From positions 75,051,348-75,115,347 of the forward strand of contig NC_080427.1 in assembly GCF_029873635.1 (NCBI RefSeq): a DNA stretch of 64,000 nucleotides. The letters run 5' to 3'. The translations under genes and the position numbers were made by a program. Numbering within the stretch: position 1 is the first letter of the stretch; every line of letters starts with the position of its first letter. Shown here piece after piece: positions 15,090 to 55,241 of this stretch. The notes below the pieces were generated by a model, which searched no databases, was not told where the DNA came from, and saw nothing but the letters and a program-made list of their open reading frames with translations. The stretch comes from Malania oleifera (taxonomy: Eukaryota > Streptophyta > Magnoliopsida > Santalales > Ximeniaceae).

Positions 15090-15172
15090 TGTAGAGACCC
15101 AAAGAATTATAGTAATTAAATAATAAGAGAAAGGAGGAAAAAGAGAATTTAAAAAGGGGACTAAGTAGGGCC

Positions 15173-15379
15173 TTGTCGACGAATGCTCCGCGTTCATCAA
15201 CGAACAAGATTATTAGGATCGTCAACATGGACATGTGTCTCGTCAACAAAAAATTTCCGAGAGGGCTGATTTCAGGATTTGAAATTCATCAACAAGGGGT
15301 AAGTTCTTATAGACAAACTACCTTCTTGGCCTCGTCGACGAAGTGATGTGTCTCGTCGACAAAGCCAGGTGTATAAATA
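15173..15379 (+). promoter_or_regulatory. Palindrome array plus TATA box in solo LTR
   Basis: Copies of the palindrome TCGTCGACGA start at 15173, 15194, 15219, 15240, 15287, 15332 and 15353, with a weak copy at 15307. The one at 15332 is perfect; the others carry mostly C/T or G/A changes. TATAAATA lies at 15372-15379, 9 bp after the last copy. A CT-rich leader follows. This is the U3 promoter of the LTR; a role for the palindromes is inferred from their conservation in four other LTRs. Confidence 0.75.
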
Positions 15380-16150
15380 AGCTCAAACTTAGCTTCCAAT
15401 GAAATTTTCATGCAGCAATCCTCTTTCTCTCTCTAAAATCGTCTCCCTCACCTTCTCTCTTCATTTTAGGCCCCTTTTTTCGCCGATTCGATGATCGGAA
15501 GCTGCCACATTACTCCTGGTAAGATTCTCTTTAAGTATGTTGAAGCAGATCATTGGTTAGGCAGATCAATGGTTAGGCCAACTTGGGTACCTTCCCAAAA
15601 TTAGGGTAAGTTGAATATTTGGGTATTTCCAGTATTATCAAGCTTATCCAAATTTAGATTCTGTAATGTATGTAAATATACTAGTGTTTTATGGAGTAAA
15701 ACTAGGGTATTATATTTTCAGGGATATGGTATTTTGGGACCCTACAGGCATGGGTTGAGGACCCCCAACAGATATTTTTATAGAAGCTCAGGTATATTAT
15801 AATTTAGGAAATATGAGTGAGATAATTTTCTAGGAAAATTCAGTGATTTACCGAGGAATTTGTATAACTCTATTATTGCAGGATTTTTGGGTTAACACGC
15901 CATGAGCATGAAAATAGAATTGGAGGCGGCGAGCCTTCCAACAGTTAGGTAAGGGAAATATGTTATGCTAGCAAATTCAGGAATTTTATCAGTATCAATT
16001 ATAATATTTAAATATAAGTACAGGGTGTGATTTTGAATATGTCAGAATATAGATTTATACAGATTTTTAATACATGATTTTTATTTGGTATGTGACATGA
16101 GTTTATATTTATTCAATATAGAATTTATACAATTCTCAAAATATCATGAA

Positions 16151-16226
<76 letters not shown>
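16151..16226. repeat. Compound microsatellite (AT)n(GT)n
   Basis: About 13 AT units followed by about 25 GT units inside the solo LTR. Confidence 0.97.
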
Positions 16227-16227
<1 letters not shown>

Positions 16228-17368
16228 CTACAGAATTATAAATTTCTAGAATACATATAGATAGACAATTTACAGAATATTCATAAATATGATTTATAGT
16301 ATTTTCAAGTTACCATTACTTCAGAACCATGATATTCACATATTCAGTCAAATATTCAAATATTCAGATATTTAGATATTCGGTTAGTTATTCAGAAATT
16401 CAGATTATTCAGATCAGTTTTACGGTATTATGGTTATTCCAAAATCATGGTAAAAATAGTAAGATAATTATAAATATCAGTATTATATAGTATTAGACTT
16501 GATGAATTATTCAGTCAGCAAAGTACGGTACCATTGCTATTTCAGTTTAGGGTGTAACCACACAACTTAGATAGTATGTGGATTTTTTAGTAGTTGATTG
16601 TGCTTATGTTGTGGATAGGCTCACTGTCAGTTAGGGTTGAGGAGGCCAATTTGACTTTCGAAGTTCAGTTGACTTATCCTGGTCGGCCAACCAGTGTTAA
16701 GTCTCACCTACGGGCCGCACAACCCTATCATGAGGGGTTAAATCATGACTTATAGTTTTTCAAGGTATTTTCATAGTTATTTATATGTATATAGAATTAC
16801 AGTAAACATCAGATATATTATAGTATTAGCCATATGAATAAGTAGGAAACTCAGTTAACACAGTTGTATTTTAAAGTATATAGATGTGAGTTGCAATATA
16901 AATTGTTTTATCAGTAACTTAGTTTCAGAATTTTTATCTGTATAATATATCTGTAACTCATCTGCTACACTCTAGTAATAGCATATTTCACCTTACTGAG
17001 AGTTGTCTCATCTCAGTAATTTACCACTTTTCAGGTGATCCAGGAAGGCGTGTAGATCAGGCACCGAGATAGGGGGGACCTTTTACTGCCTTATTCAGAG
17101 GGTAAGTATTTTGGGAAGTCACTTTTGAGTAGTCCCTAGGTTCAGGTGAGGGTATTTTGGGAATGGTTATGTAAGTATCTCTTGGAGAGATATTGGCTCT
17201 CTGGTATTGTATATATTTGATGTGGTTATTTGATTCCTACTTTCCGCTGCATAGTTTATAGATATACAGGTTCCATGGTCCCTACCTGGTCCGTGATGAT
17301 GTTATGGTTTATATTAGAGGGTATTATGGTGAAAGTTTACAGTTTATATACATAAGCATGTCGCTATA

Positions 17369-19445: not shown

Positions 19446-20458
19446 TGTAACGACCTGCTTAATTTCCATAGATTTTTTTTCATAATATAATAAAAACATG
19501 ATCCACCTGAACCCGTGGGTACCAGGGATATAATAGAAATACAAAACGGAAGCCTAAGCAGCAAGAAACATAAAATCACAATATCAAATACACAAAACCA
19601 TCCATCTCAATATCAGAGTTACTACATCCATTGTTATTATATTTACAACCCAAAAGGAGACCTAGGGTCATTCCCACAAAAATCATCTGACCCTATCACA
19701 AAATACATACCCTTTAGAAAGGGCAGGTCAACCGTATCTACCTCAGTGGAGCTTTATCCACTGTCCTATCAGGGGCTCCTAAAATTTTCATGAAATTTCG
19801 GGGTGAGACACCTCTCAGTAAGGGAAATAAACTAACACTAGTGTGTGGCAACATTAGCATTTCTGTGATATATATATATATAATCATGAACATAACCAGT
19901 AAAATTGTATTTATATTTTTGGGAAAAACATGTATAATCATAACATGACAGAACATACTGCATTCTCATAGCATAACTCATCTCATATAATAATAATACA
20001 AAAACAATCCTGGTAGGTTAGCAGGCTGTTGGCATGTATTACCCCCACATGACTGGGTTGTGTGGCCTGTAGGCGAGACCTGACAGTGGTTGGCCGACCA
20101 CTGCCAAGTCAAAAGTACAGTCTATAAGTCTGATGGGTCTGCCAGACCTGGTCCGTACACAAGGGCGCTCACACTTCTTAATACCACATCGACCATCCAA
20201 CCTCATGCCACTCCGTATAGTAGCGTTAACACAAATATCATGATAAATCATGAATATATAGCATCGGTACCGTGCAAGTGCTAGCCTAGACCAAGCCAAC
20301 CAGGTTCTAATAACATATAGCATATAATGAAACTGTGATACATGGATATTTCATACTATTAATTGCCAAATCAATATCATCACATCATTTTGCATATTTA
20401 TACATATATCACAAAAATTATTGGCTCATATGCCGGTATTTCATATTTTAACAAAGTT

Positions 20459-20680
20459 CGGTCCGTACGCCAACAAATCATATCCATAGCACGACTTGTA
20501 CGCCGACAAATCATGTCCATAGCACAGCTCGTACGCCGAAATCATATCCATAGTACAACCCGTATGCCGAAAAATCACATACATAGCACGACCCATACGC
20601 CGGCAAATCGTATCCATAGCACAACCCGTACACCGGCAAATCACATACATAACACGACCCGTATTCCAGAAATCATATCC
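20459..20680. repeat. 33-bp minisatellite within Tekay LTR
   Basis: Seven imperfect copies with unit content like CATATCCATAGCACGACC followed by GTACGCCGGCAAAT. The GTACGCC-equivalent starts are at 20465, 20498, 20531, 20562, 20595, 20628 and 20661, so the period is 33 bp with one 31-bp unit. Shorter versions occur at 27540-27726 and 63475-63620. Confidence 0.92.
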
Positions 20681-21272
20681 ATATCTTTACCATGTTCCCA
20701 GAAAATAGTATTTCATTATAAATTCCGCTCATGCCACACGAAATAGGTTTTATACATATTTAAACATATAATCTTTTACAGCAGTATTTCCCAAACATAA
20801 AGTATATATATATATGTAAATATATTTTTATTTCCCTAAAATCAGATGCTGTAATAACATACATACACTTTCATAAAATAACTAGCTTAGTTATCCCCTT
20901 ACCTGATTCCTGAAAAGCCCCTAAGAGAAACACTCCTGCACCCGTAGGGTTCCCCACTCAACACCCTAAAAATGATATTCCCCTGAACTAAACTTCAGTA
21001 TTTCTACGCATACTATGCTTTCTACAACTAACAAGAAGTCAAATATTAAGTAGAAAGTCTTACATTGGATCTGGGATGAATTCCGAACTCGACCCATCGA
21101 CGATCCACTCTAGCATATATGTAGAGAACTTCCCCAGAAGTGTCTTGATGGCTTCGGATCGTTGATCTGGCGAAGATTAGACCCAGAAAACTAGAGAGAA
21201 GGTTGGGCAACCGAAGGGAGAGAGAAGGGAGGATTCTGCACCAAAATTCTATCAAAAAATCGCATTTAGAAC

Positions 21273-21475
21273 TATTTATACTGCGGCCTTCGTCGATGAG
21301 CCACATCACCTTGTCAACGAGGTCATGAAGGAAGTTCATCGACAAAATCTGTTTCTCGTTGACGAAATTCAGGAATGAGAGAATTGCTCTTCAGTATTTT
21401 CTCGTCGACGAAACGTACACTCGTCGATGAGCCCAATTGTAACTTCGTCGACAAAAGTTTTGCGTTTGTCGACGA
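21273..21475 (-). promoter_or_regulatory. TATA box and palindrome array, Tekay 3' LTR
   Basis: On the minus strand TATAAATA occupies 21273-21280. Upstream of it (higher coordinates) copies of TCGTCGACGA start at 21290, 21311, 21336, 21356, 21402, 21421, 21445 and 21466. Only 21402 is perfect. The gap from TATA to the first copy is 9 bp. Confidence 0.78.
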
Positions 21476-21818
21476 GACCTGCTGCCTCTTTCTTTATCCT
21501 TTCCAATTTCTATTTCCTCCCTCTCTAATATTATTTAAATATTATAATTATTCAGGTCACTACATTCTCCTCTCCTTATAAAATTTCGTCCTTAAAATTT
21601 ACTGTTCATGTAACTTATCGTCCCTTAAAAGAAAAAAGGTCTACTTATTTTATTACTTACCCTCACTTATAAAGGAGGAATACCATGGTTACATTCCAAG
21701 TTTTGGGAGATTACATATACAAAAGAAAATTCTCCCAAAACTAAAATACCACTTACTAATTAAATTATTACATGTACCTACAAAAGAAACATTACCTAAC
21801 TACTTACATTTTACCCGA

Positions 21819-23246
21819 TTAAACTTCTTGGAATAAGTGCAGATACTCTTGCTTCATCTGCTCCTCGGATTCCCAAGAAGCCTCTTCAACTGTATGATTC
21901 CTCCACAAAAATTTTACCTGAAGAATCTCTTTGTTATGTAACTCCTGTACTTTCCTATCTAGAATCTGTAATGGTACCTCCTCATATACTAGTGAATCAC
22001 TGAACTCTAATTCACCATAACTAATAATATGAGAAGGGTTTGGAACGTATTTCCTCAATGTAGATATGTGGAATACATCGTGAATTCTAGATAACACAGG
22101 TGGCAAAGCTAGCTTGTAGGCCACCGGCCCCATTTTCTCTAGGATCTCAAATGGACTGATAAACCTAGGACTAAGTTTGCCCTTCTTTCCAAATCGCATA
22201 ATCCCTTTCAACGGAGCTATTTTCAAAAATACATGATCGCCAACTTCAAATTCTAAATTCTTGCGGCGATTATCAACATAACTCTTCTGTTGGCTCTGAG
22301 CTGCACTGATTCTCTCTCTGATGAGTCGAATTTTATCACACGCTTGCTGTACCAACTCTAGCCCCACAACTCGCCACTCACCCATCTCATCCCAAAACAA
22401 AGGAGAACGACATCTCCTACCATACAGTGCTTTAAATGGTGCCATGCCAATACTGGTCTGATAATTGTTATTATACGCAAACTCTACCAGCGGCATGAAT
22501 TGAGTCCAATTACCCCCAAAATCCAATACGCACGCTTGGAGCATATCCTCTAATGTATGTATCGTCCACTCAGTCTACCCATCTGACTGAGGATGAAATG
22601 TCGTGCTAAACGATAACTAAGACCCTAGTGCTTCCTACAAACTCTTCCAAAAATGTGGCGTAAAATGCGGGTCTTGATCTAACACAATCGATACTGGCAC
22701 CCCATGAGAACAAATTATCTCTTGAATGTAAAGCTCTGCCAAATGGTTAAGGGAGTAGCTGATCTTGATAGGTAAGAAATGGGCAGTCTTAGTCAAATAG
22801 TCAACAATCACCCCGATGACATTTTAGTCGTGCAATGCCATCGGCAGTCTTGACACAAAGTCCATAAATATATGATCCCACTTCCACTCTGGGATAAATA
22901 GCGGCTGCAACTGCCCTTCCAGCCTTTGGTGCTCAGCTTTTACCTGCTGGCATGTTAGACACTGGGCTACATATTCGGCGATCTCTCTCTTCATACCACT
23001 CCACTAGTACGACTCTTGCAGATCCCTATACATCTTCGTACTACCAGGATGAATTGTATATAAAGATCTGTGAGCCTCCTCTAGAATGGTCCTCCTAATA
23101 TCCACATCGACAGAAACACATAATCCGGAATGGAACCTCAAAGCTTCGTCATCTGCAACACTGAATTCCTCCCCCTAACCACTCTGCACTCTGTCCATCA
23201 CCTCTGCTAATTCTGGGTCTTCTTTCTGAGTAGTTTTAATTCTTTC
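21819..23246 (-). pseudogene. Tekay integrase with chromodomain-like C-terminus
   Basis: The open piece 21819-22544 encodes the integrase end of the core (WTQFMPLVEFAYNN, then APFKALYGRRCRSPLFWDE), the GPF/Y-like segment (LSPRFISPFEILEKMGPVAY) and a chromodomain-like tail (RNHTVEEASWE). It ends at a stop at 21819 followed by a 3' untranslated stretch. Upstream to 23246 the zinc-binding and catalytic core are recognisable only in pieces; for example Gln is replaced by stop in the SDGQTE motif near 22575. Chromodomain tails direct such elements toward particular chromatin in related families. Confidence 0.86.
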
Positions 23247-23786
23247 CTACATGATAGGTTGCACTACTAAACTGGCAATGTGAGCCTGAGAACCACTCTC
23301 AACTAATTCAGTACCTAGTTTCTCCAGATCTATCATGATTGAATACTGAATCTCCATAGTCGCCAATGCTGATTCCCACGATTTCCTACTCAACGCATCA
23401 ACTACCACATTTACTTTCCCTGGGTGACAACTGATGGTACAATCGAAATCTTTAATTAGCTCCAACCACCTTCTCTGCCTCATATTCAGTTCCTTCTATG
23501 TGAAAAAGTACTTCAAACTCTTGTGGTCGGAAAAGATTTCACACTGCTCGCCATACAAGTAATGCCTCCAAATCTTCAATACGTGTACAATTACAGCCAA
23601 CTCAAAATCATGGGTAGGGTAGTTCTTTTCATATTCTTTTAACAGCCTAGATGCATACACCACCACCCTGCCATGCTGCATCAATACACAACCAAGTCCC
23701 TTCAAGGACACATCACTGTAAATGACATACCCCTCACCCCCTAACGAGATGACCAATAGTGGTGCTGTGACTAATATTTGCTTCAA
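23247..23786 (-). pseudogene. Tekay RNase H
   Basis: Two adjacent open pieces (23496-23786 and 23247-23483) carry the RNase H motifs [35 protein letters not shown] and [11 protein letters not shown], followed by the tail with VDALSRK. The catalytic acidic residues are visible but a stop separates the pieces near 23490. It would degrade the RNA strand during reverse transcription. Confidence 0.88.
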
Positions 23787-24038
23787 TTCCTGGAAACTCT
23801 GCTCACAGCTGTCGTCCCACTCAAATCTGACATTCTTCTGAGTTAGTCATGTCAAAGGCCTCGATAACGATAAAAATCCCTCTACAAAATGACGGTAATA
23901 CCCAGATGGCCCCAAGAAACTCCTAATCTCCTAGACATTCCTTGGTCTAGCCCAATTTACTATGGCCTCAACCTTACTAGGATCTACAGAAATACCATCT
24001 CCAGATACAACATGCCCCAAGAACATGATCTTCTCAAG

Positions 24039-24848
24039 TTAGAATTCACATTTACTGAACTTGGCATACAACTTCTTTTCCCGAAGCGTTTGTAGAACCC
24101 GCCTCAAGTGCATCTCATGCTCCTCATGGCTCCTCGAATAGACCCGTACATCATCAATAAAAACAACAATGAACTGGTCTGGGTATTGGTGGAAGACTTT
24201 GTTCATCAAGTCCATAAATACTGCAGGAGCATTCGTCAAACCAAACAGCATAACAAGAAACTTGTAATGTCCGTACCTGGTCCTGAAGGCTGTCTTTGAT
24301 ACGTCTTCTGCTTTCACTTTTACCTGGTGATGGTGGGATCTAAGATCAATCTTAGAATAAACCCGTGTACCCTGGAGCTGGTCAAACAAATCATCTATAT
24401 GGGGTAAAGGATATTTATTCTTAATTGTCACTTTATTAATCTCCCTATAATTTATACACATCCTCGTCGACCCGTCTTTCTTCTTTACAAATATAACTGG
24501 AGCTCCCCATAGAGATACACTAGGTCGTACAAAGCCCTTATCCAGCAAATCTTGCATCTAATTCTTTAATTCTGCCAATTCTTCTGGCGCCATTCGGTAA
24601 GGTACTTTAGAAATCGACATTGTACCTAGAAGTAGATCAATAGGAAAATATACCTCGCGATTAGGTGGCAAGCCTGGTAACTCATCTGGGAAAATATCTG
24701 TAAAATATTTTACTACAGGCATACTAGCAAGTTTCAATTCATTCTCTGACATCTCCTTTACAATGGCCACAAACCCCTGACAACCACTCAGCAACAGTCT
24801 CCTGACTTGGATAGCTGAAACTAGCTGAGGTAGGGATTGCACTCGCAA
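24039..24848 (-). pseudogene. Tekay reverse transcriptase
   Basis: The linker FPDELPGLPPNREVYFPIDLL and YRMAPEELAELK (24558-24848) run into the RT core after a stop at about 24555-24557, where the family usually has Gln. The core has [54 protein letters not shown] and the catalytic FIDD in [13 protein letters not shown]. The open part is 172 codons, close to the length of the family's RT palm region. Confidence 0.9.
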
Positions 24849-24869
24849 CCTTACGGACTTGAATTTCGC

Positions 24870-25265
24870 TTATCCCGGAGGTCTGAATATCACTTCTCGT
24901 GTTTGACAATCTATGCTAGAAAAATTAGCTGCTAGCCAATCCATGCCAAATATGACATCAAACTCGTGCATGTCCAGCACTATCAAATTAACAAACAAAG
25001 TCCTCCCCTGGATATCAACTAGACGGAGCACCCTACTACACCTCGCTGCTAACTCAGTTGGTGTAGATACCAACAATTTAGTGTCTAACAACTCTGTTTC
25101 TACTCCATATAGTCTAGTGCACTCCAAGGACACAAACGAGTGTGTAGCTCTTGAATCAAACAATGCAATAACTTTAAAAGAAAGTATAATAACCATACCT
25201 ATCACCACGTCACCTGCCGTCTCAGCCTCACCTGACGTTAGAGTAAACACCCTGGTTGGAGTCAT
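24870..25265 (-). pseudogene. Tekay aspartic protease (altered active site)
   Basis: 131 codons without internal stop. LFDSRATHSFVS replaces the expected DSGATHSF: the essential active-site Gly is Arg. Downstream DVIFGMDWLAANFSSIDC is the usual second half. The altered triad predicts loss of protease activity even though the frame is open. Confidence 0.88.
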
Positions 25266-26291
25266 ATTCCTCTACTAGCCTCCACGTGGCGCCTGATAAA
25301 ATCCTCGGTGTGGTCAGGGAGCTGGAATTGCATCTAGTGGGGTAGGGCAATTTTGCACCATATGACCCTGCCTACCGCAACAGTAACAAACAACTCCACC
25401 TATGCAACACTCTCCCAAGTGTCTCCTCCCATAAGTCTGTCAGATAGGGAGACCCTACACTGCCTAAACCTTGTGTCCTCTAGTCTCCTGTCTCCATCCT
25501 CTGCCATGATTTCCTCTCCTCCACTGACTCGGTCTGTGACCCTATTGATAACCTGTAGATGCAGATCTCTTCCTTTGTCCCTGCTTCTCTACATCCAGCC
25601 GCTCACCAACCTCTACCAAGGCTACTCTATCGAATAGCTTAGCAAAATCCTGGATCCACAGCACTACCACCTGCTTGAAAATACTCCGTCTTAAGCCTCT
25701 CTCAAATTGTCTCGCTTTCTTCACCTCATTAGGGACAATGTATGGGGCGAAACGAAAGAGCTCGATGAAACGCACCGCATACTACTAAACTGATAATTGT
25801 CCCTGCTTCAGACTTAGGAACTCTTCCACTGTAGCCTCTCTGACAGTGGCTGAAAAATACCTATCAAAGAATAATTCCCTAAACCGATCCCAAGTCATGG
25901 CAATCGGCGTAGTCCTCTGCTGCTCCAAAAGCCTCATAGCAGTCCACCATCTCTCGGCCTCTCCTGTCAGTCTATAGGTGGCGAAGAGGACCCTCTTTTC
26001 ATCCGTACACTGTAACATGGCCAGGACCTTCTCGATCTCCTGCACCCAGTTCTCAGTGGCTATAGGATCGACTCCTCATGAAATGGCCAGAGGATTCATC
26101 TTCGTAAACTTCTTGATAGTGCATCCATGGCCAACCAACAAACCACCTTACTCCCTAGAGCTCTTAGTGATCTCATCCATAACCTGCTGAGCCACGCTAT
26201 GTAATACCGTGTCAAAGTCGGTTCCAGCTGCACCTGATGGCCCTGCTCCATCACTGCCACTCACATAGGCACTACTTCCTCCTAGATCCAT
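25266..26291 (-). pseudogene. Tekay gag
   Basis: A likely start ATG (complement of CAT at 26289-26291) begins MDLGGS. Retrotrans_gag motifs are [31 protein letters not shown] and VNEVKKARQFERGLR-type segments (25542-26045). The nucleocapsid knuckle CYCCGRQGHMVQNC, with all CCHC ligands, lies at about 25347-25392. Stops at about 25780 and several others interrupt it. Confidence 0.87.
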
Positions 26292-26523
26292 CCTGAAAAC
26301 AACAAATGCAACTTAGAAATTCAATCCTTATAATATACCCACTTAACTTAACCTATTATCTCAACACTCTCAGCTTATTTCTAACCCTAGTCCTACATTC
26401 TAGGAACATAACCCGACAATAGCTTAAATCCTGCCTCTAGACTGTAGAACAACCTTAAATCATTTCCTATACTCTGGTATCATTTCCGCTGCATTCTAAA
26501 GTCTACAAAACCTAGCAACCTAG

Positions 26524-26535
26524 GCTTTGATACCA
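26524..26535 (-). other. Primer-binding site of Tekay element
   Basis: On the minus strand TGGTATCAAAGC lies 3 bases after the 5' LTR terminus (CATTACA). It matches 11 of 12 bases of the initiator tRNA-Met complement. Confidence 0.88.
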
Positions 26536-27721
26536 AATTGTAATGATCTACTTAATTTCCATGATTTTTTTTCATAATATAATAAAAACATAATCCACCT
26601 GAACCTGTGGGTACTAAGGATATAAGAGAAATACAAAATGGAAGCCTACACAGCAGGAACCATAAAATCACAATATCATAAATACAAAACCATCCATCTC
26701 AATACCAGAGTTACTATATCCATTGTTATTATATTTACAACTCAAAAGGAGACCTAGGGTCACTCCCACAAAAATCATCCGACCCTATCACAAAAGACAT
26801 ACCCTTTAGAAAGGACAGGTCAATCGTATGTACCTCAGTGAAGCTTTATCCGCTCTCCTATCAGGGGATCCTAAAAAGTTCATGAAATTTTGGGGTGAGA
26901 CACCTCTCAGTAAGGGAAATAAACTAACACTAGTGTGTGGCAACATGAGAATTTCTATGATATATATATAATCATAAACATAACCAGTAAAACTGTATAT
27001 ATATTTCTAGGAAAAACATGTATAATCATAACATGACAGAACATACTGCATTCTCATAGCATAACTCATCTCATATAATAATAATACAAAAACAATCATG
27101 GTAGGTTAGCTAGTCATTGTCATGTATTACCCCTACATGACTGGGTTGTGTGGTCTATAAGCGGGACCTGACAATGGTTGGTTGACTACTGTCAAGTCAA
27201 AAGTACAGTCTGTAAGTCCGATGGGTTTGCTAGACCTGATCCGTACACCTGGGGCGCTCACACTTCTTAAAATCACATCAACCATCCAATCTCACACCAC
27301 TCCATATAGCAGCGTTAATACAAATATCATGATAAATCATGAACACATAGCATCGGTACCATGCAAGTGCTATTCTAAACCAAGCCAACCAGGTTCCAAT
27401 AACATGTAGCATATAATCAAACTATGATACATAGATATTTCATACTATTAATTTCCAAATCAATATCATCACATCATTTTGCATATTTATACATATATCA
27501 ATAAAATCATCGGCTCGTATGCCGGTATTTCATATTTTAACATAGCTCGGCCCATACGCCAGCAAATCATATCCATAACACGACTCGTACGTTGGAATAT
27601 CATATCCATAGCATGGCCCGTACACCAAAAAATCATATCCATAGCACGGTCTATACACTGGGAAATTACATACATAGCACGGTTTGTGTGCCGGCAAATC
27701 GTATCCATAGCATGACCCGTA

Positions 27722-27726
27722 CACCG
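27722..27726. other. Left target-site duplication of plus-strand Athila element
   Basis: CACCG here and CACCA at 36022-36026 flank the element exactly at its LTR termini. Surrounding sequence is minisatellite matching 20629-20645. Confidence 0.85.
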
Positions 27727-28625
27727 TGATTACGCGCCAAAACTGCGTAATTGGGTATCTTAACCCTGTATTTACGGCTTATATTTTTAAATAAATGTCC
27801 AATTATGTCCAATATTTTGATAAAGTTCCATATTTATCATTCTGGAGTTTTATTGTGCAATTTATGAATTTTGAGTAATTTTTTATCGTAAGAAAATTCT
27901 CGGAAACCAAAACCAGCACCTGTTCGTATTTCATGCATAACTTTTCCATCCGAACTCTGATCGAAAGGATTCAAATTTTTTAAGAAATAGGAAAGGATTA
28001 TCAACAACTTTTGTGTTTTGAGTTTCATGAGAAATGGGTTTCAAGGAGGTCAAATAAGGCTGTGAACGTAGAGAACAAATAAAATGAGAAAATAAAAATA
28101 TATATAAAAGGGTCATGATTTGACCCGACCATGCAAGCCGGGTCGTGTTGGACAATCTGGGTAGGGCAATCCTTCTTTCCTCTTTATAAACTGCCCCCGC
28201 GCATCTTCTCTTCTTCTTCCACTTCTCTTCTCCTTCTTCTTCCTCTTTTCTTTCCCTTAGTCGTCCTCTGCCCTTTCTCTTGCTCATTATCCTGTTTTCT
28301 TCCTCTGTTTTTTTTTCTTTTCTCTCATTCTCTCCCTGTTTCCTACTGCCCTCTATTCTCTCTATTTTTCTTTTGTTTTTCCCTTCAACCTCTCTTCTCT
28401 CTTCTCTCTTTGTTCTCCTTCAGTTCTCCTTCTCTTCCCTTTTCTGCAACCCAGCTATCCCAAGAAGCTCTGCAACCTGCTGCAATAGTCCAACCTCCAC
28501 CCGAGCATTCTTCATCATCCAAGCACCAGTAGAAGCTTCCAAGTTGCACAGCAATAGCAACGCTTGAGGCTCTCTCCAACAACCTCTTGCAGGCCACAGA
28601 CTCCCCAGTAACAGCACCAAAAACT
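27727..28625 (+). repeat. 5' LTR of nested Athila element, direct half
   Basis: Starts TGATTACGCGCC and is collinear with 34435-35325, including TATAAA at 28185-28190 and the CT-rich leader. It stops at 28625 where an inverted LTR end begins. Confidence 0.88.
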
Positions 28626-29451
28626 TGACTCACTAAAAAATGAGTAGCTCGGAAGCTATCCCAAGTTTAGGAGTTACATCGTGTAATATTAAGCCCAAGG
28701 GCTTGATTGTCTCCTCAAGGAACGCGTTTTAATCTCAGATTTTATGTTTTTCCAATCGAAAATAAAAGTACTGAACTCAGTTCAGATTCAGGCTTTCAAG
28801 ATTGTTCAATTTAACTTTTGACAAATTAAATAACACACAAATTAAACCCTAAAACTAACATTCACTAAATTAAAAAGCAAGAATGGAAGCCCTAGTTTAC
28901 TCAAGAAAACACCGAAACAATCACGAATTTAAATTGGTAACCTAGAACACGAAAGTAAAACATGTCAATCAAACTCAATGCACACACTAAAAACCAAAAA
29001 TTTAATCAAATCAAGAACTAAAGCTAAAAAAAAAAAATATTGTTAAAAAGACTTGAGGATTCAAATAATTAACTGAGTGTAACAATGCTAAAAGTAAACA
29101 ACCATTCAAAAATCCAATTTTTTCAATAAACAAAGCAAGAATAATAACCATTGTAATAAAGAAAGAAAGAGAAAAGAAAGAAAAGAGAGAGAATGATGTT
29201 CTAGCCTAGTGGTTTGCTGCAAAGGGTGGTGGTGCTTTGGTGGTCGAAGTAGAGAAGGTAATCTACTTGAGGAAAAGGCTGGCCTACGGCTGCTGTTGGT
29301 CAGCCATGGCTATGCAGAGCTGGCTTGTGTGCAGTTGCAGAGGAGTCTGTGGCCTACAAGAGGTTGCTGGAGAAAGCCTCGAGCGCTACTATTGCTGTGC
29401 TACTCGGAAGCTTCTGCTGGTGCTTGGATGATGAAGAATGCTCGGGTGGAG
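28626..29451 (-). repeat. Inverted partial LTR copy
   Basis: 826 bp that reads as the reverse complement of the 3' part of the LTR at about 35205-36021, beginning exactly at the LTR terminus (TGACTCAC). Its last about 125 bp are inverted relative to 28500-28625, forming an inverted repeat with an inter-arm distance of roughly 700 bp. Confidence 0.88.
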
Positions 29452-29594
29452 ATAGTTCGAATCGATTGTGTAGACTTTCACCTAGCACTAATAGGGATAC
29501 ACATAACATCGAATCTGACTGTTCACTTGTTAGTCTTGAGAGTGATTCTAAATTTGAGTTGAATAATCTATTTGGCCACTATTTCGAAGAAGCT

Positions 29595-31250
29595 ATGGCT
29601 ACACATGCACCACGTACACTTGAAGATTTTCTATAACCTACTCACACATCTACACCTTCATGCATCGTGCTGCCACAAGATGCATCGAATTTCACTCTTA
29701 AGCATGGCATGTTATCTATGATTCCCCAGTTTCAGGAGATGGACTTTGAGAGTCCATATCAACACTTGATAGATTTTGAGCTGGTTTGCACCACGTTTAT
29801 TAATAGGGCTGGGACTGATGAATACATTAAACTGCGTTTGTTTCCCTTTTCTCTGAAAGACAAGGCAAAAATCTGGTTTAATTCTTTGCGCCCTAACTCT
29901 ATTACTAGCTGGGCTAATATGCAGCGTAAGTTCTTGCATAAGTTCTTTCCTTTTTAGAGAACTCAGTACCTACAGGAGCAGATCAGTTAGTTCATGCAAA
30001 AAGATGGCGAGACGTTCCAAGCATGTTGGGAGAGATTCAAGGACCTGATGAACATATGTTCACATCACGGATTCGAATCTTGGAGGTTCGTGAACTATTT
30101 TTTTACTGTTTTAACCCCTGTGTGCAAACAATTTGTCTAGACTATGTGCAATGGGATGTTCTTCCGTAAGGAACTAGATGAGGACTTATCATTTTTAGAC
30201 TATCTAGCTGAGAGTGCCCAACAATGGAACACGCGTCTTGAAAGGGCATCGATAGCAACACAACCTCTCCGAGCGATTAGTGGTGGAGGCCAATACGAGG
30301 TCAAAGAGGAGACTAGCTTACAAGCTCTGGTTGCTGCGTTATCTAAGAAACTGAAAGTTATGGAATTAGAGATAGCAAAATCTGAGGTTTGCACTATCTG
30401 TGAGACTTCAGACCACAGATCTCAGGACTATCAATTCCTACCAGTATGGCAAGAGAGTAGACCTGATCGGGTACCATCGGCAAATTGGGTCAACACAACA
30501 CAAAATCAGCCTCTCTCAAACACTTGTAACCCAGGATGGCAGAATCATCTAAACCTCCCATGGAAAAATGATCAGCCAGGTCCATCATCCTCGCGGTATC
30601 AGCAAGTTCCTCAATCATATGCACTGCCTCTGCAACAGATATATCAGCTAGTTGCCGCTCCTCCACCACATTATCAGCCGCAACAAATTTCTCAGAGTTA
30701 CGCACCACCGAGATTTCAACCAACTCTAGTTCCTATCCTAGCGAAGAAGTCTCTTGATGATAACATGGCGCAAATGACAAACATGTTTCAACAATTCATG
30801 CAGATTCTTGTCACGACCAGTAATCAGAGTAGTCAATCATTCAGTGAATTAAAAGATGCCATGAATAAGATAAGTACACAGTTGAACACCATGGAAAATG
30901 GGAAATTCCCTGCACAGCCTTAGCCGAATCCCCAGGTATATAGAAAGCAACAGCAATATGTGCACAATGTTTCAGAAGATACGTTTAAGTCAGTAAAGGC
31001 AGTTATTACCTTGCGAAGCGGAAAAGAAGTTGCCCGTCCTGAAATGCCCACTGACTAACAAACAGTCGTGCCAGCACCTAAGGTGGCAAATGAGACAGAT
31101 AAAGGAAAAGAAAAATCAGATGAGGCCAACTCAAGTTTAACAAAGTCAGATAATAAAGAGGATGATCCAGTTAAGGAATACCAACCTGTGGTACCGTACC
31201 CTCAGCGGTTGACATTTGATCGAAAGAATAAGTATCATACGGAGATCTAG
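29595..31250 (+). pseudogene. Nested Athila gag
   Basis: Begins MATHAPRTLEDF and contains the Retrotrans_gag core (HGMLSMIPQFQEMD, LRLFPFSLKDKAKIWFNSL, CWERFKDLMNICSHHGFESW) and ELDEDLSFLDYLAESAQQWN. The knuckle CTICETSDHRSQDY has its final Cys replaced by Tyr. A Gln/Pro-rich middle and the RSGKEV segment lead into the protease. The longest uninterrupted part is 30144-30923 (259 codons). Stops occur at about 29635, 29956 and 30924 among others. Confidence 0.87.
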
Positions 31251-32160
31251 GAGATATTCAAACAGGTGAAGATCAATATTCCACTTCTAGAGGCGATACA
31301 ACAAATCCTAGCATATACAAAATTTTTGAAAGACCTATGCACAGTAAAAAGGAAATTAAATGTGGAGAAAAAGGCTTTCTTGACTGAGCAAGTCAGCGCG
31401 TTGATACTAAATTAGACTCCACAGAAACTTAGAGACCCTGGGTCTCCCACGATTTTGATCTTGATGGTGAATCTCGCATCGGGAGAGCTTTACTTGACTT
31501 GGGGAGTAGTGTGAATCTGCTCCCATTCTCGATATATAAACAATTGGGTTTAGGTGAACTAAAGAAGACCAATATGATGCTACAGTTAGCAGACAGATCC
31601 GTAAAAGCTCCACAAGGCATCATTGAGGATGTATTGATTTAGGTTGACAAATTTTACTATCCAGTGGATTTTGTTGTTCTCAAAATGCAGTAGCCTGTGT
31701 CCACCATCTATCAGGCCTCTGTTGTCCTTGGCTGACCATTCCTTACAACTTCTAACGCTTTAATCAATTGTCAAAGTGGAGTACTCAAGCTTACGTTTGG
31801 GAACATGGCACAGGAAATGAACGTGTTTAATAAAACGCTAACTGGACGTGAGGAATAAGAGGCACACGCAGTAGACATGGTGGATGACTTGGATGCATTG
31901 GAGCCGTTTTCAGCAGTTGGTCTGGATGGTATGTGTGAAAATGAAGCTCCTGGATAACTTGAGGTAATTGATAAGCTGTCCACAGGGATAGATGAAATAT
32001 TGATCCGTGATGAGCAATGGAAATCGCCAGAATTGACTATGTTAAACATCACCTATCCAATCAACGACATGTCATACGACCCTCTAGTTGATGATATTGT
32101 GAACTACTTTGCTACCAATCGAACATTACTACAGGACAAGTGACAGTTCTTTTCAGAAGT
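31251..32160 (+). pseudogene. Nested Athila protease and deleted pol remnant
   Basis: Frames give KINIPLLEAIQQIL and AYTKFLKDLCTVKRKLN, then the protease motif DLGSSVNLLPFSIYKQLGLG (about 31490-31560) and the post-protease YYPVDFVVL. The text then passes through NCQSGVLKLTFGN-type sequence to an RNase H-integrase linker like VDDIVNYFATN near 32085-32120. No RT motif is present, so RT and RNase H were deleted at about 32050. Stops and frameshifts are frequent. Confidence 0.8.
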
Positions 32161-34434: not shown

Positions 34435-36021
34435 TAATTACGCGCCAAAACTGCGTAATTGAGCATCTTAACCTGGTATTTATGGCTTATATTTTTAACT
34501 AAATGTCCAATTACGTCCAATATTTTGATAAAGTGCTGAATTTATCATTCTGGAGTTTTATTGTGCAATTTATGAATTTTGGGTAATTTTTTATCGCATG
34601 AAAATTCTCGAAAACCAAAATCGGCACCTGTTCGTATTTCATGCATAACTTTTCCACCCGAACTCTGATCAAAACGATTCAAATTTTTGGAGAAAGGGGA
34701 AAGGATTATCTATAACTTTTGTGTTTCAAGTTTTGCGAGAAACGGGTTCCAAGGAGGTCAAAATAGGCTATGAATACAGAGAACAAATAAAATGAGAAAA
34801 TAAAAATATATGTAAAAGGATCATGATTTGACCCCGCCATGCAAATCGGGTCACGTTGGACAATCTAGGTAGGGCAATCCTTCTTTCCTCTTTATAAACC
34901 GCCCCCGTGCATCTTCTCTTCTTCTTCCTCTTCTCTTCTCCTTCTTCTTCCTCTTTTCTTTCCCTTAGCCGTCCTCTGCCCTTTCTTTTTGCTCATTATC
35001 CCGTTTTCTTCCTCTGTTTTTTTATTTTCTCTCATCTCTCCTTGTTTCTCGATGCCTTCTGCTCTCTCTGTTTTTATTTTGTTTTTCCCTTCAACCTCTC
35101 TTCTCTCTTCTCTCTTTGCTCTCCTTCAGTTCTCCTTCTCTTCCCTTTTCTGCAACCCAGCCATCCCAGGCTGCAACCTGCTGCAACAGTCCAACCTCCA
35201 CCCGAGCATTCTTCATCATCCAAGCACCAGCAGAAGCTTCCAAGTAGCATAGCAATAGCAGTGCCCGAGGCTCTCTCCAGCAACCTCTTGCAAGCCACAA
35301 ACTCCTCTGCAACTGCACATAAGCCAGCTCTGCATAGCCACGGCCGACCACTAGCAGTCGCAGACCAGCCTTTTCCTCAAGCAGATTACCTTCTCTACTT
35401 CGGCCACCAAAGCACTGCCACCCTCTGCAGCAAACCACTCGGCTAGAACATCATTCTCTCTCTTTTCTTTCTTTTCTCTTTCTTTATTTATTACAATGGT
35501 TATTATTCTTTCTTTGTTTATTGAAAAAAATGGATTTTTGAATGGTTGTTTACTTTTAGCATTGTTAGACTCAGTTAATTATTTGAATCCTCAAGTCTTT
35601 TTAACAGTATTTTTTTTTTCGGTTTGAGTTCTTGATTTGATTAAAGTTTCAGTTTTTAGTGTGTGTGTTGAGTTTGATTGACATGTTTTACTTCGGTGTT
35701 CTAGGTTACCAATTTAAATTCGCTGTTGTTTCGATGTTTCCTTGAGTAAACTAGGGCTTCCATTCTTGCTTTTTAATTTAGTGAATGTTAGTTTTAGGGT
35801 TTAATTTGTGTGTTATTTAATTTGTCAAAAGTTAAATTGAACAATCTTGAAAGCCTGAATCTGAACTGAGTTCAGTACTTTTATTTTCAATTGGAAAAAC
35901 ATAAAATCTGAGATTAAAACGCATTCCCTGAAGAGACGATCTAGCCTTTGGGCTTAATATTACACGACGTAACTCCTATACTTGGGATAGCTTCGGAGTT
36001 GCTCATTTTTTGAGTAAGTCA
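34435..36021 (+). repeat. 3' LTR of nested Athila element
   Basis: 1587 bp starting TAATTACGCGCC (TG mutated to TA) and ending GTAAGTCA. TATAAA is at 34893-34898 with a long CT-rich leader after it. This is the reference copy for the rearranged 5' LTR and for the host LTR at 37416. Confidence 0.9.
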
Positions 36022-36193
36022 CACCAACAAATCACATACATAGCATGGCATGTATGCCGACAAATCATATCCATATCTTTACCATGTTCCCAAAAACCAA
36101 TATTTCATTGTAAATTTCGCTCATGCCACACGAAATAGGTTTTATACATATTTAAGCATATCATCTTTTACAGCAGTATTTCCCAAACATAAA

Positions 36194-36194
<1 letters not shown>

Positions 36195-36240
<46 letters not shown>
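36195..36240. repeat. TA microsatellite
   Basis: About 22 TA units followed by a T run in the Tekay 5' LTR. The corresponding site in the other LTR (about 20800) has only a few units. Confidence 0.95.
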
Positions 36241-36247
<7 letters not shown>

Positions 36248-36694
36248 TTTATTTTCCTAAAATCAGATGTTGTAATAACATACATACACTTTCATAAAAT
36301 AACTAGTTTAGTTTATCCCCTTACCTGATTCCTGAAAAGCCCCTAAGAGAAACACTCCTGCACCCATAGGATTCCCCGCTCAACACCCTAAAAATGATAT
36401 TCCCTAGAACTAAACTTCAATATTTCTACACGTACTACACTTTCTACAACTAACAAGAATTCAAATATTGAGTAGAAAGCCTTTCCCTGGATCTAGGATG
36501 AATTTCGAACTCGGCCCACTGACAATCCACTCCAGCAGATATGCAAAAAACTTCCCCATGAGTGTTGTGGTGGCTTCAGATCGTCGATCCAATGAAGAAT
36601 GGACCCAAAAAACTAGAGAGAAGGTTAGGGAACCGAAGGGAGAGAGAAGGGAGGATTCTGCGCCAAAATTCTATCAAAAAATCGCATTTAGAAT

Positions 36695-36830
36695 TATTTA
36701 TATTGTGGCCTTCGTCGACGAGCCACACCACCTCGTCGATGAGGTCATAAAAAAAATTCGTCGACGAACTCTGTTTCTTGTCAACGAAACGTACACTCGT
36801 CGATGAGCCCAATTGTAACTTCGTCAACGA
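36695..36830 (-). promoter_or_regulatory. TATA box and palindrome array, Tekay 5' LTR
   Basis: TATA at 36695-36702 (minus strand). Palindrome copies start at 36712, 36733, 36758, 36778, 36797 and 36821; 36712 and 36758 are perfect TCGTCGACGA. The gap from TATA is again 9 bp. Compared with the 3' LTR, two copies and the 46-bp interval between them have collapsed into one. Confidence 0.78.
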
Positions 36831-36878
36831 ACGCGAATATTATTTAAATATTATAATTATTTGAGTCACTACACTAGA

Positions 36879-38553: not shown

Positions 38554-38940
38554 GGAGGGCTTGCGTGAGCTCCACACAGCAGCTATTGTTGCTGTGTTCT
38601 CCTATTTGCAGCGGCGCAACTCCCCAAAACCCCAGCTCCAAGCCTCCCACACGCAATCTCCTTTTCCCCAAAAACCCTAGCCACCTTTTCTACCCTAACT
38701 TGCCTTCCCTTTTCTTTTACTCTCTTTTTCTTTTTCTTATTTACCTCCTAGCTTATAACCTCCTGCCACCGCCTACTTTTTCTGCCAGTCGTAGCCCTTT
38801 TCTCTCCTTGTTTTGTTGCTTTTCATTTTCCTCTCTTTTACTTCAATGCCTTCACATGCCAGTGCCTATAAGCCTCACGCCCCTCACACAACACACACAC
38901 TGTAACGACCTGCTTATCTTAATATATATATATATATATA

Positions 38941-39188
38941 TATATAAACGCAATAAATAAAATAGTCAACCTGAACCTATGGGTAACGGGGACATTTGTC
39001 ATTCATAGCGGAAACCTAAGCAGTAGTAAGTATAAAATTACAACCATCCAACCATAAATTTTATATATATAAACACAATAAATAAAATAATCAACTCGAA
39101 CCCGTGGGTAACGGGGACACTTGTCATTCACAGCAGAAACCTAAGCAATAATAAGTATAAAATTACAATCATCCAACCATAAATTATA
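38941..39188. repeat. 125-bp tandem duplication in solo LTR
   Basis: Two copies in direct order. GGGTAACGGG starts at 38981 and 39106, 125 bp apart, with matching flanks over the whole unit. Confidence 0.92.
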
Positions 39189-39959
39189 ATACCAGAGTCT
39201 ACTTATACCAAAATATCATACATATATTTTCAATCTCCCATAACATTCCAAATATAACTAGGATCTCATAACAAAATAATCCTGATCCTAGTACAAAATC
39301 TTACCCTCCTAGTGGGGTAACTCAATAAACTTAACGAAGGCCACGACCTACCGGTCTCTCAGGGTCTCCTAAAAAATTAATTAAATTCGGGGGTGAGACA
39401 CTTCTCAGTAAGGGAAAATAAACTAAATACAGCTGTGTGGTAACATGAACATTTAATAATAATATAGATATACAGTACAAACTTAATACCAGAAAACATT
39501 CATCATTTAGTAATTGCATAAACGTATACTTTCATATTTCTAATACATCATACTAATCATAAATGTCTAGTATAGCTAATAATACTAAAAACATACCCAG
39601 AATGAATAGTTAGCTGATGTCATGTATTACCCCCCATGACAGGTTGTGCAACCCGAAGACGGGACCTGACAATGGCTAGCTGACCACTATCGAGTAAAAA
39701 ATGTCTATAAGTAAGATGGGCCCGTCACACCATGGTCCGGACTTCTAGGCGGACATCCACACTTTACACTGAAAGCCACATCGACTATCCATCTCCCACC
39801 CCCTTGTGGGGTGGTTAACACCAATCTGATCATAGATATATGATCTATAAGCTATGGTACCGTGCTCCTAAAACTGAACTAAACTAACATCTGGGTTCTG
39901 GTAACATATAGTATATGATAATATAACATTTGACATAAATAGATTGATAGCATTTCTAT

Positions 39960-40135
39960 AATTTACATAAATATGGCCTCGTGCCAAACATTTCATAAAT
40001 ACGGCCTCGTGCCGAACATTTCATAAATACAGTCTCGTGCCGAACATTTCATAAATAGGGCCTTCGCGCCGAAATCATACATAAAACACGGCCTCGCACC
40101 GGCTATCAATCACAGTCTTACACCAAATATTTCAT
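39960..40135. repeat. 28-bp minisatellite in solo LTR
   Basis: About six copies of a unit like ATAAATACGGCCTCG followed by TGCCGAACATTTC. It occupies the same LTR position as the 33-bp minisatellite of the Tekay LTR. Confidence 0.88.
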
Positions 40136-40883
40136 ACATATCATTCTGAATAATAAATCAATTATCATGTATTTCCAACATCATTTTGTACTGTATATTT
40201 CATATTCCTGAAAACATGCTTCATTCATAACATATTCATATCATAATACTTGTCATGTAAAGAAATATTCATGTCACACATTTACTGTATTAAAACAATA
40301 CATTGTATTCTAAAATCATAATTTTTGGCATCTCATACATACATATACATTTCAACATAATAGCAGTATTTTCCTAAACGTGCATTTCCTTCGTAATATT
40401 CAAATATAGTACATGCTTTTCTAAAAATAAATTTACTGATAAATAATAATAATTTGCATAGAAAATAAGTGTTTTAGTTTATTCTCTTACCTGACTATTG
40501 AGAAAAGCCCCTATAAATTCTGTTCTCACACCAGTAGGATTTCCTAATCAATATCCTGAAAATGAAACTCCCAATACTAAACTTTAGTATTTTCGCGTAA
40601 ATATCATTTCCTATAACTACAGTAGGACCAAATTCGGCATAAAAAGTTTTACCTCAACTCAGGGATGAATTCCAACTTACTTCCACCAACAATCCGCTCC
40701 AGCATATTTTTTAGAATACTTCCCCAAGAGCATCGTGGCAGCCTCAGATCATCGATCTGGCGAACGACGGAGCCGAAATCAAAGAGAGAGGAGAGAGAAA
40801 CCAAAGGGAGTGAGATAGAGAGAGAGAGAGAGAGAGTGAGTGAGTAATTTCTATTTTTCTACGTTAAAAATCTGATTTTCAGC

Positions 40884-41140
40884 TATTTATAGGGCTGGAT
40901 TCGTCGACGAGACATGTCACCTCATCGACGAGTCCTGTAGAAAGTTCGTCGACGAACCTGCACCTTCGTTGACAAATTTCAGACTTCCCCAAAACCCTCT
41001 CTTGGTATCTTCTCATCAACGAAACTTGGCTTCGTCGACAAGGCCCTCTTATACCCTCGTCGACGAATCCCCTATGTTTGTCGACGAGGACCTGATGATT
41101 TCCTTCGATTAATACTCCCAAAGTGTAATGTCGTCGATGA
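40884..41140 (-). promoter_or_regulatory. TATA box and palindrome array, solo LTR
   Basis: TATA at 40884-40891 on the minus strand. Palindrome copies start at 40901, 40922, 40946, 40966, 41013, 41032, 41057, 41078 and 41131. Perfect TCGTCGACGA occurs at 40901, 40946 and 41057. The gap to TATA is 9 bp. Confidence 0.8.
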
Positions 41141-41645
41141 ATGCGAAGTTTGTTGCCTCTTTCTGTTTCTATTTCCATTTCCCTTCCTCTCTATTTAAAT
41201 ACCATTTTTATTATTTGGGTCATTACACACACACACACACACACAAGGCCTTTTTTGAATTGCATAGTTGGGCCACATCAAAGACCCGGCCCAGTTTCCT
41301 TTTTTTTTTTTTTTTGTGTTTTGTCTTCATTCCAACACACCAAGGCCTTTGTTGCTCATGGGCTTGCCAGTTGCTTCACTCTTCACACACGCGGCCCACT
41401 TGAATGCATGCATGGCCCCTAAGCCCAATGTATGGCTGAGTCCTCCTTCAAATTTTCAAAAATTACCCTACAATAATTAGGTAGAAAAACTCGTAAATTT
41501 CATGGCAAAGATAAAATAAAAATTCAAATTTTTTGAATTGAATCTAATGTTTAAATACTAAACATAATTAGGTATTTAATCAAAATTTTAACACTTAATA
41601 AATACATTTAAATACCTAATTACGTATCTTTGACGCATAATCAAG

Positions 41646-54363: not shown

Positions 54364-55241
54364 TGTAGTGACTCGGAGAATAATAGTATTTAAATAATAA
54401 TGAGAGAGAAATGGAAACAGTAACAAAAGGAGGCAGCCGACTTCGTCGATGAACACGAAGCGTTCGTCGATGACATTGCATTTTGGATGGAATAACCCGA
54501 AAGATTTTCCACAGGGCCTCGTCGATGAACACAAGAAGTTTGTCAACGAGTGCATAAGGGGACCTCGTCGACGAAGTTACGACTTATCGATGAGAAGATA
54601 CCAAGAGAAGAATTGAGCTACTCTGAATTTCGTCGACGAAGGGTAAGGTTGGTTGACAAAATTACTTAAGAACTCGTTGACGAGATGACGTGGCTCGTCG
54701 ACGAAGCCTGCAGTATAAATAGCCCTAAATTGATTTTTAATCACAAAAATTTGCCGCAGTCTCTCTCTCTCTCTCTACCCCTACGGCTCCTTCTTCTTCT
54801 TCCTTTGATTTCGGCCCCGTCAGTCACCAGATCGATGATCTGAGGCCACTATGACGCTCCTAGTGGAGTTCTCTGCAAGTCCACCAGAGCGGATCGTTGG
54901 TGGGACGAAGTTGGAATTCATCCCAAATCCAGGGTAAGGTCTTTTATTTGAAATTTGGATTTCTAGCAGTTGTGAGAAATGTAATAGACATAGAGAGTGA
55001 CTATTTTTTGGAGTATTTTTGTATAGCCTTAGCTAGTTGACGATATTTCTGAGGAACAATTATATATGTGTATTTTGGGAAACAATTTAGCACTCTCGTA
55101 TTGTATGTAGTTATATATATGATTATGTTTATTTGATTTCTGCTTCTCGCTGCTTAAGTGAATGGTTGGGTTTAATCCAGTTTGGTATCAGAGCATTATA
55201 AATTTCATAGTATATGAAAAAAAAAATAGCAGGTCGTTACA
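54364..55241 (+). repeat. Short LTR-like insertion of Tekay-related family
   Basis: 878 bp from TGTAGTGACTC to GCAGGTCGTTACA, with perfect TTAAA duplications (54359-54363 and 55242-55246). The sister LTR at about 61080 is uninterrupted, which confirms the insertion. It is much shorter than other family members, so part of the LTR was deleted. A perfect primer-binding-site sequence TGGTATCAGAGC lies unexpectedly inside it at 55183-55194. Confidence 0.88.
54443..54721 (+). promoter_or_regulatory. Palindrome array plus TATA box (ten copies)
   Basis: Copies of TCGTCGACGA start at 54443, 54464, 54519, 54540, 54565, 54584, 54630, 54650, 54674 and 54695; those at 54565, 54630 and 54695 are perfect. 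TATAAATA is at 54714-54721 after a 9-bp gap. A CT-repeat leader follows. It is the longest version of the array in the window. Confidence 0.82.

Follow-up and report, generated by a model that had tools for sequence, protein, structure and literature searches.

We found that one and the same array of a short palindrome, TCGTCGACGA, is carried by the LTRs of two Ty3/gypsy groups and of one Ty1/copia family, and by Sirevirus-like LTRs, in Malania oleifera. Judging from the sequence, the array is probably an upstream U3 enhancer with a fixed syntax, which would be bound by a dimeric host protein; this suggests that unrelated elements may share one control switch. Retrotransposon promoters usually change fast and differ between families, whereas here site order, spacing and sequence are fixed. 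The arrays were studied in the window, that is, the whole stretch of 64,000 nucleotides that was analysed, and in its source assembly of 1.494 Gb, all comparisons being made within this single genome.

Five palindrome arrays lie upstream of TATA boxes in the window

All five arrays of the window were recovered where an earlier note had placed them, and in five of five the site nearest to the TATA word TATAAATA was separated from it by 9 bp, again as previously described. On the plus strand, the 15-kb array (15173..15362) holds eight sites, with TATAAATA at 15372..15379, 9 bp from site 1, and the 54-kb array (54443..54704) holds ten, with TATAAATA at 54714..54721. Two sites in each of them (15219 and 15307; 54584 and 54650) were too decayed for a CpG-tolerant scan and were placed by homology only. 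On the minus strand, the 21-kb array (21290..21475) has eight sites, the 36-kb array (36712..36830) six and the 40-kb array (40901..41140) nine, and their TATAAATA words are found at 21273..21280, 36695..36702 and 40884..40891, respectively. A 14-bp element of the GAAAATACCGAGAG type, read from the sequence, adjoins site 5 at 15250..15263 (plus strand), 21388..21401 (minus), 40999..41012 (minus) and 54594..54607 (plus).

The upstream interval series that had been reported was matched when we re-measured the window arrays, apart from one missing 46-bp step in the 36-kb array. Counted upstream from TATA, the start-to-start intervals were 21, 25, 21, 46, 21, 25 and 21 bp in the 15-kb array; 21, 25, 20, 46, 19, 24 and 21 bp in the 21-kb array; 21, 24, 20, 47, 19, 25, 21 and 53 bp in the 40-kb array; and 21, 24, 20, 46, 19, 25, 21, 55 and 21 bp in the 54-kb array. 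The 36-kb array showed 21, 25, 20, 19 and 24 bp. Its missing step, in comparison with the 21-kb array, falls between two near-identical palindrome surroundings (36712-36830), and the loss looks like recombination between sites after insertion.

The exact palindrome occurs 10 times in the window, against 0.01 expected. A scan that tolerated CpG decay (CG to TG or CA) gave 38 matches, 37 of them inside the five arrays, while dinucleotide shuffles of the window gave a mean of 1.98 and a maximum of 6. Instead of the 10 bp previously proposed, the unit is rather 12 bp long, Y-TCGTCGACGA-R, with a pyrimidine before the core in 34 of the 35 window sites and a purine after it in 33 of the 35. The motifs of the earlier note were impure because they are mostly decayed forms of one palindrome.

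The arrays belong to four independent insertions

The arrays had been assigned to five LTRs. The five arrays stand, but they represent four independent insertions, since the 21-kb and 36-kb LTRs share one Ty3/gypsy element (19446-36873). We joined these two LTRs because the 21-kb LTR matches 36,789-36,021 and then 27,726-27,088, in that order, and because the target duplication TCTAG is found on both outer sides of the element. The 3′ LTR occupies 19446..21564 (minus strand) and is delimited by a polypurine tract and the start TGTAGTGACC on one side and by the end CAGGTCGTTACA with TCTAG on the other. The 5′ LTR consists of a first piece at 36021..36873 (minus strand), with TCTAG upstream, and a second piece at 26539..27726 (minus strand), which matches the 3′ LTR at 85.6% over 639 bases (1,185 bases aligned) and is followed by a PBS-like stretch with one mismatch (26524-26535). 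Coding remnants lie between the LTRs at 21819..25271 on the minus strand, comprising an RVP_2 protease (24870-25271), RVT_1 (24039-24557) and SH3_Tf2-1 with a weak Chromo match (21819-22574). This is the sole complete element of the window, and its two LTRs differ by a K of about 0.12.

The 5′ LTR is split by a nested insertion (27727-36020), which contains direct repeats resembling LTRs (27729-28028/34437-34736) as well as a pair of inverted repeats (28635-29451/35196-36011). The CpG-tolerant scan gave no palindrome match in this insertion.

The remaining arrays are carried by a probably solo LTR at 15090..17368 (plus strand; start TGTAGAGACCC; target duplication GCCCC/ACCCC with one mismatch), whose 3′ end was set by a terminal match with three mismatches, and by solo LTRs at 38901..41227 (minus strand; target duplication GTGTG, within a GT run) and 54364..55241 (plus strand; target duplication TTAAA). 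Shortly before its 3′ end, the last of these LTRs itself contains a perfect PBS-like word, TGGTATCAGAGC (55183-55194). In their longer aligned LTR parts the four elements are about 67-71% alike. Another LTR of the family of the 21-kb LTR lies on the minus strand at 62465-63999, where the window end cuts it off before the array. The window also holds a host pectin methylesterase gene (49950-51724), with PMEI and Pectinesterase domains in 49950-50912 and an open stretch at 51023-51724 that looks like its continuation.

The array is abundant in the genome and its distance to TATA is quantised by family

In the whole assembly, the exact palindrome was counted 132,361 times, against 597 expected from the base composition of the window and 114 from a first-order model; the reversed word, used as a control, had 1,383 copies. 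Exact palindromes 0-30 bp before TATAAATA numbered 17,084 (reversed control, 3), and exact pairs 0-30 bases apart 20,630 (reversed control, none). As site counts in the window and genome-wide were both far above expectation, a chance origin of the array was ruled out. Two IMG/VR contigs with palindrome and TATA were single-site matches and were taken as chance.

Among 100 listed places, the gap between palindrome and TATA was 9 bp in 40, 11-12 bp in 11, 19-22 bp in 14, 27-30 bp in 34 and 5 bp in one; most of the 27-30 bp gaps belong to site 2 of arrays in the 9-bp family. A separate list of exact palindromes supplied its first 100 places, which were all located on contig C1 and formed 43 clusters; of these we took 40 as the sample and left out three. 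At least four CpG-tolerant sites were present in 38 of the 40, and the other two (L018 and L019) were single sites and belong to no class. Sorting by blastn, TATA gap and reading divided the 38 clusters into classes A (20), B (12), C (3) and D (3), with L020 and L040 assigned by TATA gap instead of blastn. All arrays other than those of the window and of the copia relatives described below were found via an exact palindrome on one contig.

Class A comprises the family of the window and its relatives, and 11 of its 20 members have the TATA word at a distance of 9 bp; the others have altered words there or, in the case of L035 and L036, were read on the opposite strand in this count. Class B matched the window LTRs in blastn only through simple runs, and its TATA word lies at 19-21 bp in nine of 12 members, with no such word in the other three. 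Two class C loci and one class D locus have a gap of 91-97 bp. The distance from array to TATA is therefore quantised by family: the 9-bp gap holds in the window's family, and elsewhere it is replaced by gaps of 11-12, 19-22 or about 91-97 bp. Array length also varies among copies, as L083 has a further 24-bp step and L084 and L089 have steps of 66 and 55 bp, beyond the eight sites.

Ty3/gypsy and Ty1/copia elements carry the array

Classes A and B are Ty3/gypsy, because their LTRs follow pol pieces with a Tf2-1-like SH3 domain near the pol end (E 2e-26 to 1e-21; the window element and L049 for class A; L038, L013 and L027 for class B). A chromodomain in these classes is only hinted at: the Chromo match in the window element (residues 203-250 of 251) had an E value of 0.0048 and 17.2 bits, under the cut-off of 25.1, and none was found in two short class B pol pieces.

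Class C is Ty1/copia. One strand carries in a row a 5′ LTR with PBS and gag_2 (L042), Pol_BBD and RVT_2 (L051) and a 3′ LTR (L043). The two LTRs are 81% alike, each about 0.55 kb long in an element of about 5 kb, and their arrays are 4.6 kb apart. The polypurine tract AGGTGGAG differs by one change from the Sirevirus octamer and, like the Sirevirus tract, has AT/TG after it, while the inverted-repeat arm CATCATCAAAA is absent before it. Despite the AT/TG junction, class C does not look like a Sirevirus. We then used 261 bases of the LTR outside the array as the query for relatives, scored 40 of 3,619 candidates, and examined 14 of the 40 that were high-scoring, came from several contigs and were picked blind to the array. 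All 14 carried the array, with six to eight sites called, and complete arrays showed intervals of 21, 25, 21-22, 47-48, 20, 25 and 20 bp.

Class D looks Sirevirus-like, by the junction and the copia gag of another copy (L109, L110). Two of its LTRs (L015 and L044) are 88% alike, and L034 was assigned by its array only. The class D array is longer and differently ordered, with extra 46-bp steps. In L110, CATCATCAAAA is followed by AGGGGGAT, and a second arm, TTTTGATGAT, lies within the LTR; the polypurine octamer has one change relative to the Sirevirus AGGGGGAG, the junction is AA/TG and not AT/TG, and the stretch ends before the expected array. L108, which has a D-type LTR start, showed no array within 2,001 bases.

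The spacing of the sites is fixed and does not follow the helical turn

We fitted eight slots to the arrays, with the 36-kb array and class D standing outside this fit, and dropped arrays with any slot scoring below 8 (the 15-kb array among them) from the conservation, covariation and interval counts. In the resulting 42 eight-site arrays (29 of class A or with a gap of 9-12 bp, six of class B and seven of class C), the mean intervals were 20.55, 24.55, 20.26, 46.76, 20.00, 24.36 and 20.45 bp. The short intervals had standard deviations of 0.3-0.95 bp, somewhat flattered by the fit, which holds intervals within 3 bp of the plan. The list of exact pairs is free of such forcing, and its 83 distinct pairs fell, start to start, at 19-21 bp (58 pairs) or 24-26 bp (25 pairs), with none of the 83 at any other distance in the range of 10-40 bp. 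The interval series is mirror-symmetric because it consists of two like blocks.

The earlier suggestion that the sites lie on one face of the helix failed at the ordinary B-DNA pitch of 10.5 bp per turn: four arrays were tested, and their phase coherence R was 0.14-0.32. The 20-21 bp steps do come close to two turns, but those of 24-25 and 46 bp do not. The best-fitting lattice was about 22.5 bp, and near its half, 11.0 bp, R was 0.53-0.85.

Sites and spacing are kept while the spacers have diverged

A comparison of motif and spacer conservation, by which the earlier note could have been refuted, came out in its favour: the motif is far better kept and the spacing is not free. Between the four window elements, non-CpG mismatches amounted to 32/242 in sites, 232/625 in spacers and 262/912 in the leader. 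Sites within one LTR were 0.74-0.84 alike, and their flanks 0.28-0.30. Three of the four non-CpG columns were invariant over 32 sites and the fourth varied once. Between families (17 class A, four class B and one class C arrays), non-CpG motif identity was 0.977-0.993, a value biased upwards by selection on motif score, and in the same arrays short-spacer identity was 0.465 against 0.427 shuffled for A-B and 0.476 against 0.446 for A-C.

To limit the effect of motif-score selection, the results can be set beside 20 loci found via one exact site near TATAAATA. Among the further positions at which a site was expected, 125 of 140 had one and 15 were empty, and the same search at mid-spacer controls gave one of 140. 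L061-L069 and L071 were left out of this set as repeats of places already included, and some of the 20 loci lie close together (such as L073 and L074), possibly as the LTR pair of a single element.

With more copia copies (six kept of 15 further class C loci fitted, L093 left out), in-register spacer identity was 0.462 for A-C against 0.440 with slots permuted, ranking 84/720 overall and 15/48 among length-matched permutations. The A-B value was 0.465 (ranks 20/720 and 11/48) and the B-C value 0.462 (ranks 153/720 and 28/48). On these figures, little or no in-register sequence memory appears to be left in the spacers between families. Common descent of the array across superfamilies is unproven from the short spacers, as in-register identity was not above out-of-register identity. 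The 14-bp element beside site 5, for which we had picked a reference word by eye in these same arrays, matched at a mean of 11.5, 10.0 and 12.4 of 14 positions in classes A, B and C, and the 14 nt that follow it at 4.8, 3.0 and 3.6 of 14.

We weighed these data against a passive origin, in which the array would be an old tandem repeat inherited with the LTR and its spacing unselected. The window LTR sites are homologous position by position, and class A spacers are partly still alike (0.59 against 0.47 shuffled), both of which would be expected of such a repeat. However, between families the spacers have fallen close to the identity of shuffled sequence while the non-CpG bases of the motif have hardly changed, and the short intervals deviate from their mean by no more than about 1 bp; moreover, the 36-kb array lost its 46-bp step after insertion, when selection no longer acts. 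With sites and spacing kept while the spacers diverged, we regard a passive repeat as very improbable.

Predicted hairpins of the array RNA lack consistent covariation

The array might instead act as RNA, either as a self-complementary U3 copy in the transcript for dimerisation or packaging, as the earlier note had also proposed, or by feeding silencing small RNAs. The RNA of the 40-kb array was predicted to fold at -76.6 kcal/mol (z -5.9) into one hairpin that pairs sites 8/1, 7/2, 6/3 and 5/4, and this mirror pairing was the commonest in minimum-energy folds of the 42 arrays (22, 18, 14 and 14 of 42). Maize Sirevirus palindrome clusters are small-RNA hotspots, according to the accounts of Bousios 2016 in PMC10760457 and PMC5311732. 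In the flanks, two of 31 mirror positions exceeded the shuffles by 2.7-3.3 SD, both of them between two 24-25 bp spacers (0.76 against 0.56-0.57), and two of 28 neighbour positions did so by more than 3 SD. However, mirror partners at offsets of at least 2 agreed at 0.42, against 0.41 shuffled, and a further two of the 28 neighbour positions fell more than 2 SD below the shuffles, equalling those above, with related loci inflating both counts. The arms of an RNA stem must match one another, but they need not each be a palindrome. Dimerisation or packaging thus gains no clear support, the predicted long hairpin notwithstanding, as the flanks lack consistent covariation, and we hold a function of the array as RNA to be unlikely.

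CpG decay points to methylation after insertion

Each site contains three CpGs. The CpG observed/expected ratio, computed directly, reached 1.47-2.19 in the arrays of the window and was 0.56 outside them. Among 375 CpG places in the called sites of the 20 loci, 279 were CG, 87 TG or CA and nine other, so that transitions made up 87 of the 96 changes, a count biased by site calling, which favours TG and CA. The LTR pair of the complete element offers a comparison without this bias: CpG positions differed at 26/83 in one piece and 23/78 in the other, and other positions at 64/739 and 106/1107. Deamination of methylated CG is well established, and the excess of CpG change is, we infer, a trace of CG methylation after insertion.

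The CpG content also bears on a further explanation, that an anti-silencing protein of the VANC kind would bind the sites and keep the LTR unmethylated in an active element. Dense motif arrays in non-coding transposon parts are the pattern described for VANC (PMC5735166, in the parts compared), and three CpGs per site, the high observed/expected ratio and the predominance of CpG transitions fit such a role. On the other side, VANC motifs stand in one orientation within variable tandem repeats, whereas the spacing here is fixed, and the CpG decay suggests that inserted copies do become methylated. We consider it improbable that the sites serve in this way.

A candidate U3 enhancer read by a dimeric protein

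We favour the reading of the array as a U3 enhancer. Each palindrome of 10-12 bp would be a putative binding site for one protein dimer, and two blocks of four sites, each about 20, 24.5 and 20 bp apart, would load eight dimers upstream of TATA. The blocks would be separated by a step of 44-51 bp, whose spacer opens with the 14-bp element of the GAAAATACCGAGAG type. Neighbouring dimers may contact one another or cooperate, in pairs about two helical turns apart; this is suggested because the spacing is fixed while the spacer sequence is free. The dimer itself is proposed because all sites are the same palindrome, which an RNA stem would not need. Elements whose own proteins differ use the same sites and syntax, and the factor that binds them is therefore most likely host-encoded. 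After insertion, CG methylation at the three CpGs in each site would shut the array off. The long hairpin predicted for the U3 RNA may, as a by-product, give rise to small RNAs of the sort reported from maize Sireviruses. Among the literature matches listed for TCGTCGACGA, or for CGTCGACG together with plant transcription factor, no title pointed to a palindrome-binding factor or an LTR topic.

It seems more likely that the shared syntax goes back to an old exchange of the module among elements than that it was assembled repeatedly. Only tentatively, and with more doubt than confidence, do we extend this to a portable module that moved between Ty1/copia and Ty3/gypsy, with one protein, possibly sensing CpG methylation, controlling a large share of the genome's retrotransposons at once. 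If one protein does read the array, removing a single gene could test much of the genome's retrotransposon activity. The approximately 132,000 exact sites also constitute a natural data set on enhancer spacing rules and on CpG decay after silencing.

Comparison with known systems

Repeated activator boxes, partly palindromic, are present in the U3 of Tnt1 and Tto1, in few copies and in one family each. To our knowledge, these boxes have no syntax in common with Ty3/gypsy elements. Box I of Tnt1 is mentioned in PMC2829016.

VANDAL VANC targets resemble the present array in that a short motif forms dense, family-specific arrays in non-coding transposon parts, but they differ in belonging to DNA transposons with a self-encoded binding protein and in consisting of variable tandem repeats with the motif YAGTATTAY in one orientation (PMC5735166, in the parts compared). 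In maize Sireviruses, palindrome clusters with predicted strong secondary structure lie in the regulatory part of the LTR (Bousios 2016, Genome Res 26:226, as described in PMC10760457 and PMC5311732). Structured Helitron regions have this maize palindrome as their commonest motif (PMC10760457), an earlier case of two kinds of element having one palindrome in common. The maize clusters differ in their palindrome (CACCGGACNNNGTCCGGTG as cited), in their host and in their carriers, which in these accounts are Ty1/copia and Helitron elements and not Ty3/gypsy LTRs; they are also described there as highly variable and rapidly evolving, unlike the present array (PMC10760457, PMC5311732). Among open-licence papers, surveyed partly by title, we found no match for one palindrome array with one syntax in both Ty3/gypsy and copia LTRs.

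The earlier note knew of no named element with this layout, but a named relative of the array exists in Sireviruses, whose LTRs contain palindromic RM boxes (PMC2829016). In the passages compared, RM boxes are repeated palindromic boxes upstream of TATA that form CpG islands and are called Sirevirus-specific, with a CGG-CCG core except in Tnd-1 (PMC2829016). As far as these passages go, both systems place at least eight copies of a CpG-rich palindrome, with diverged flanks, upstream of TATA in the upper LTR half. The four window elements hold 8, 8, 9 and 10 sites, 42 arrays have all eight, and the present sites likewise cluster shortly upstream of TATA and, by their observed/expected ratio, form a CpG island. 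The Vitis RM box CGGTCGACCG shares its GTCGAC centre with the present palindrome (PMC2829016, as excerpted). By the same passages, TCGTCGACGA differs from RM boxes in having no CGG-CCG core, as does the exceptional Tnd-1; RM boxes are found in Sireviruses, whereas the present array is found in Ty3/gypsy elements and in a copia family unlike a Sirevirus; and the array has one common spacing, whereas RM boxes are described there without a fixed one (PMC2829016). Taken together, the kind of array is already known from the RM boxes of Sireviruses, and what is new is the palindrome, its presence in Ty3/gypsy elements and one syntax across superfamilies.
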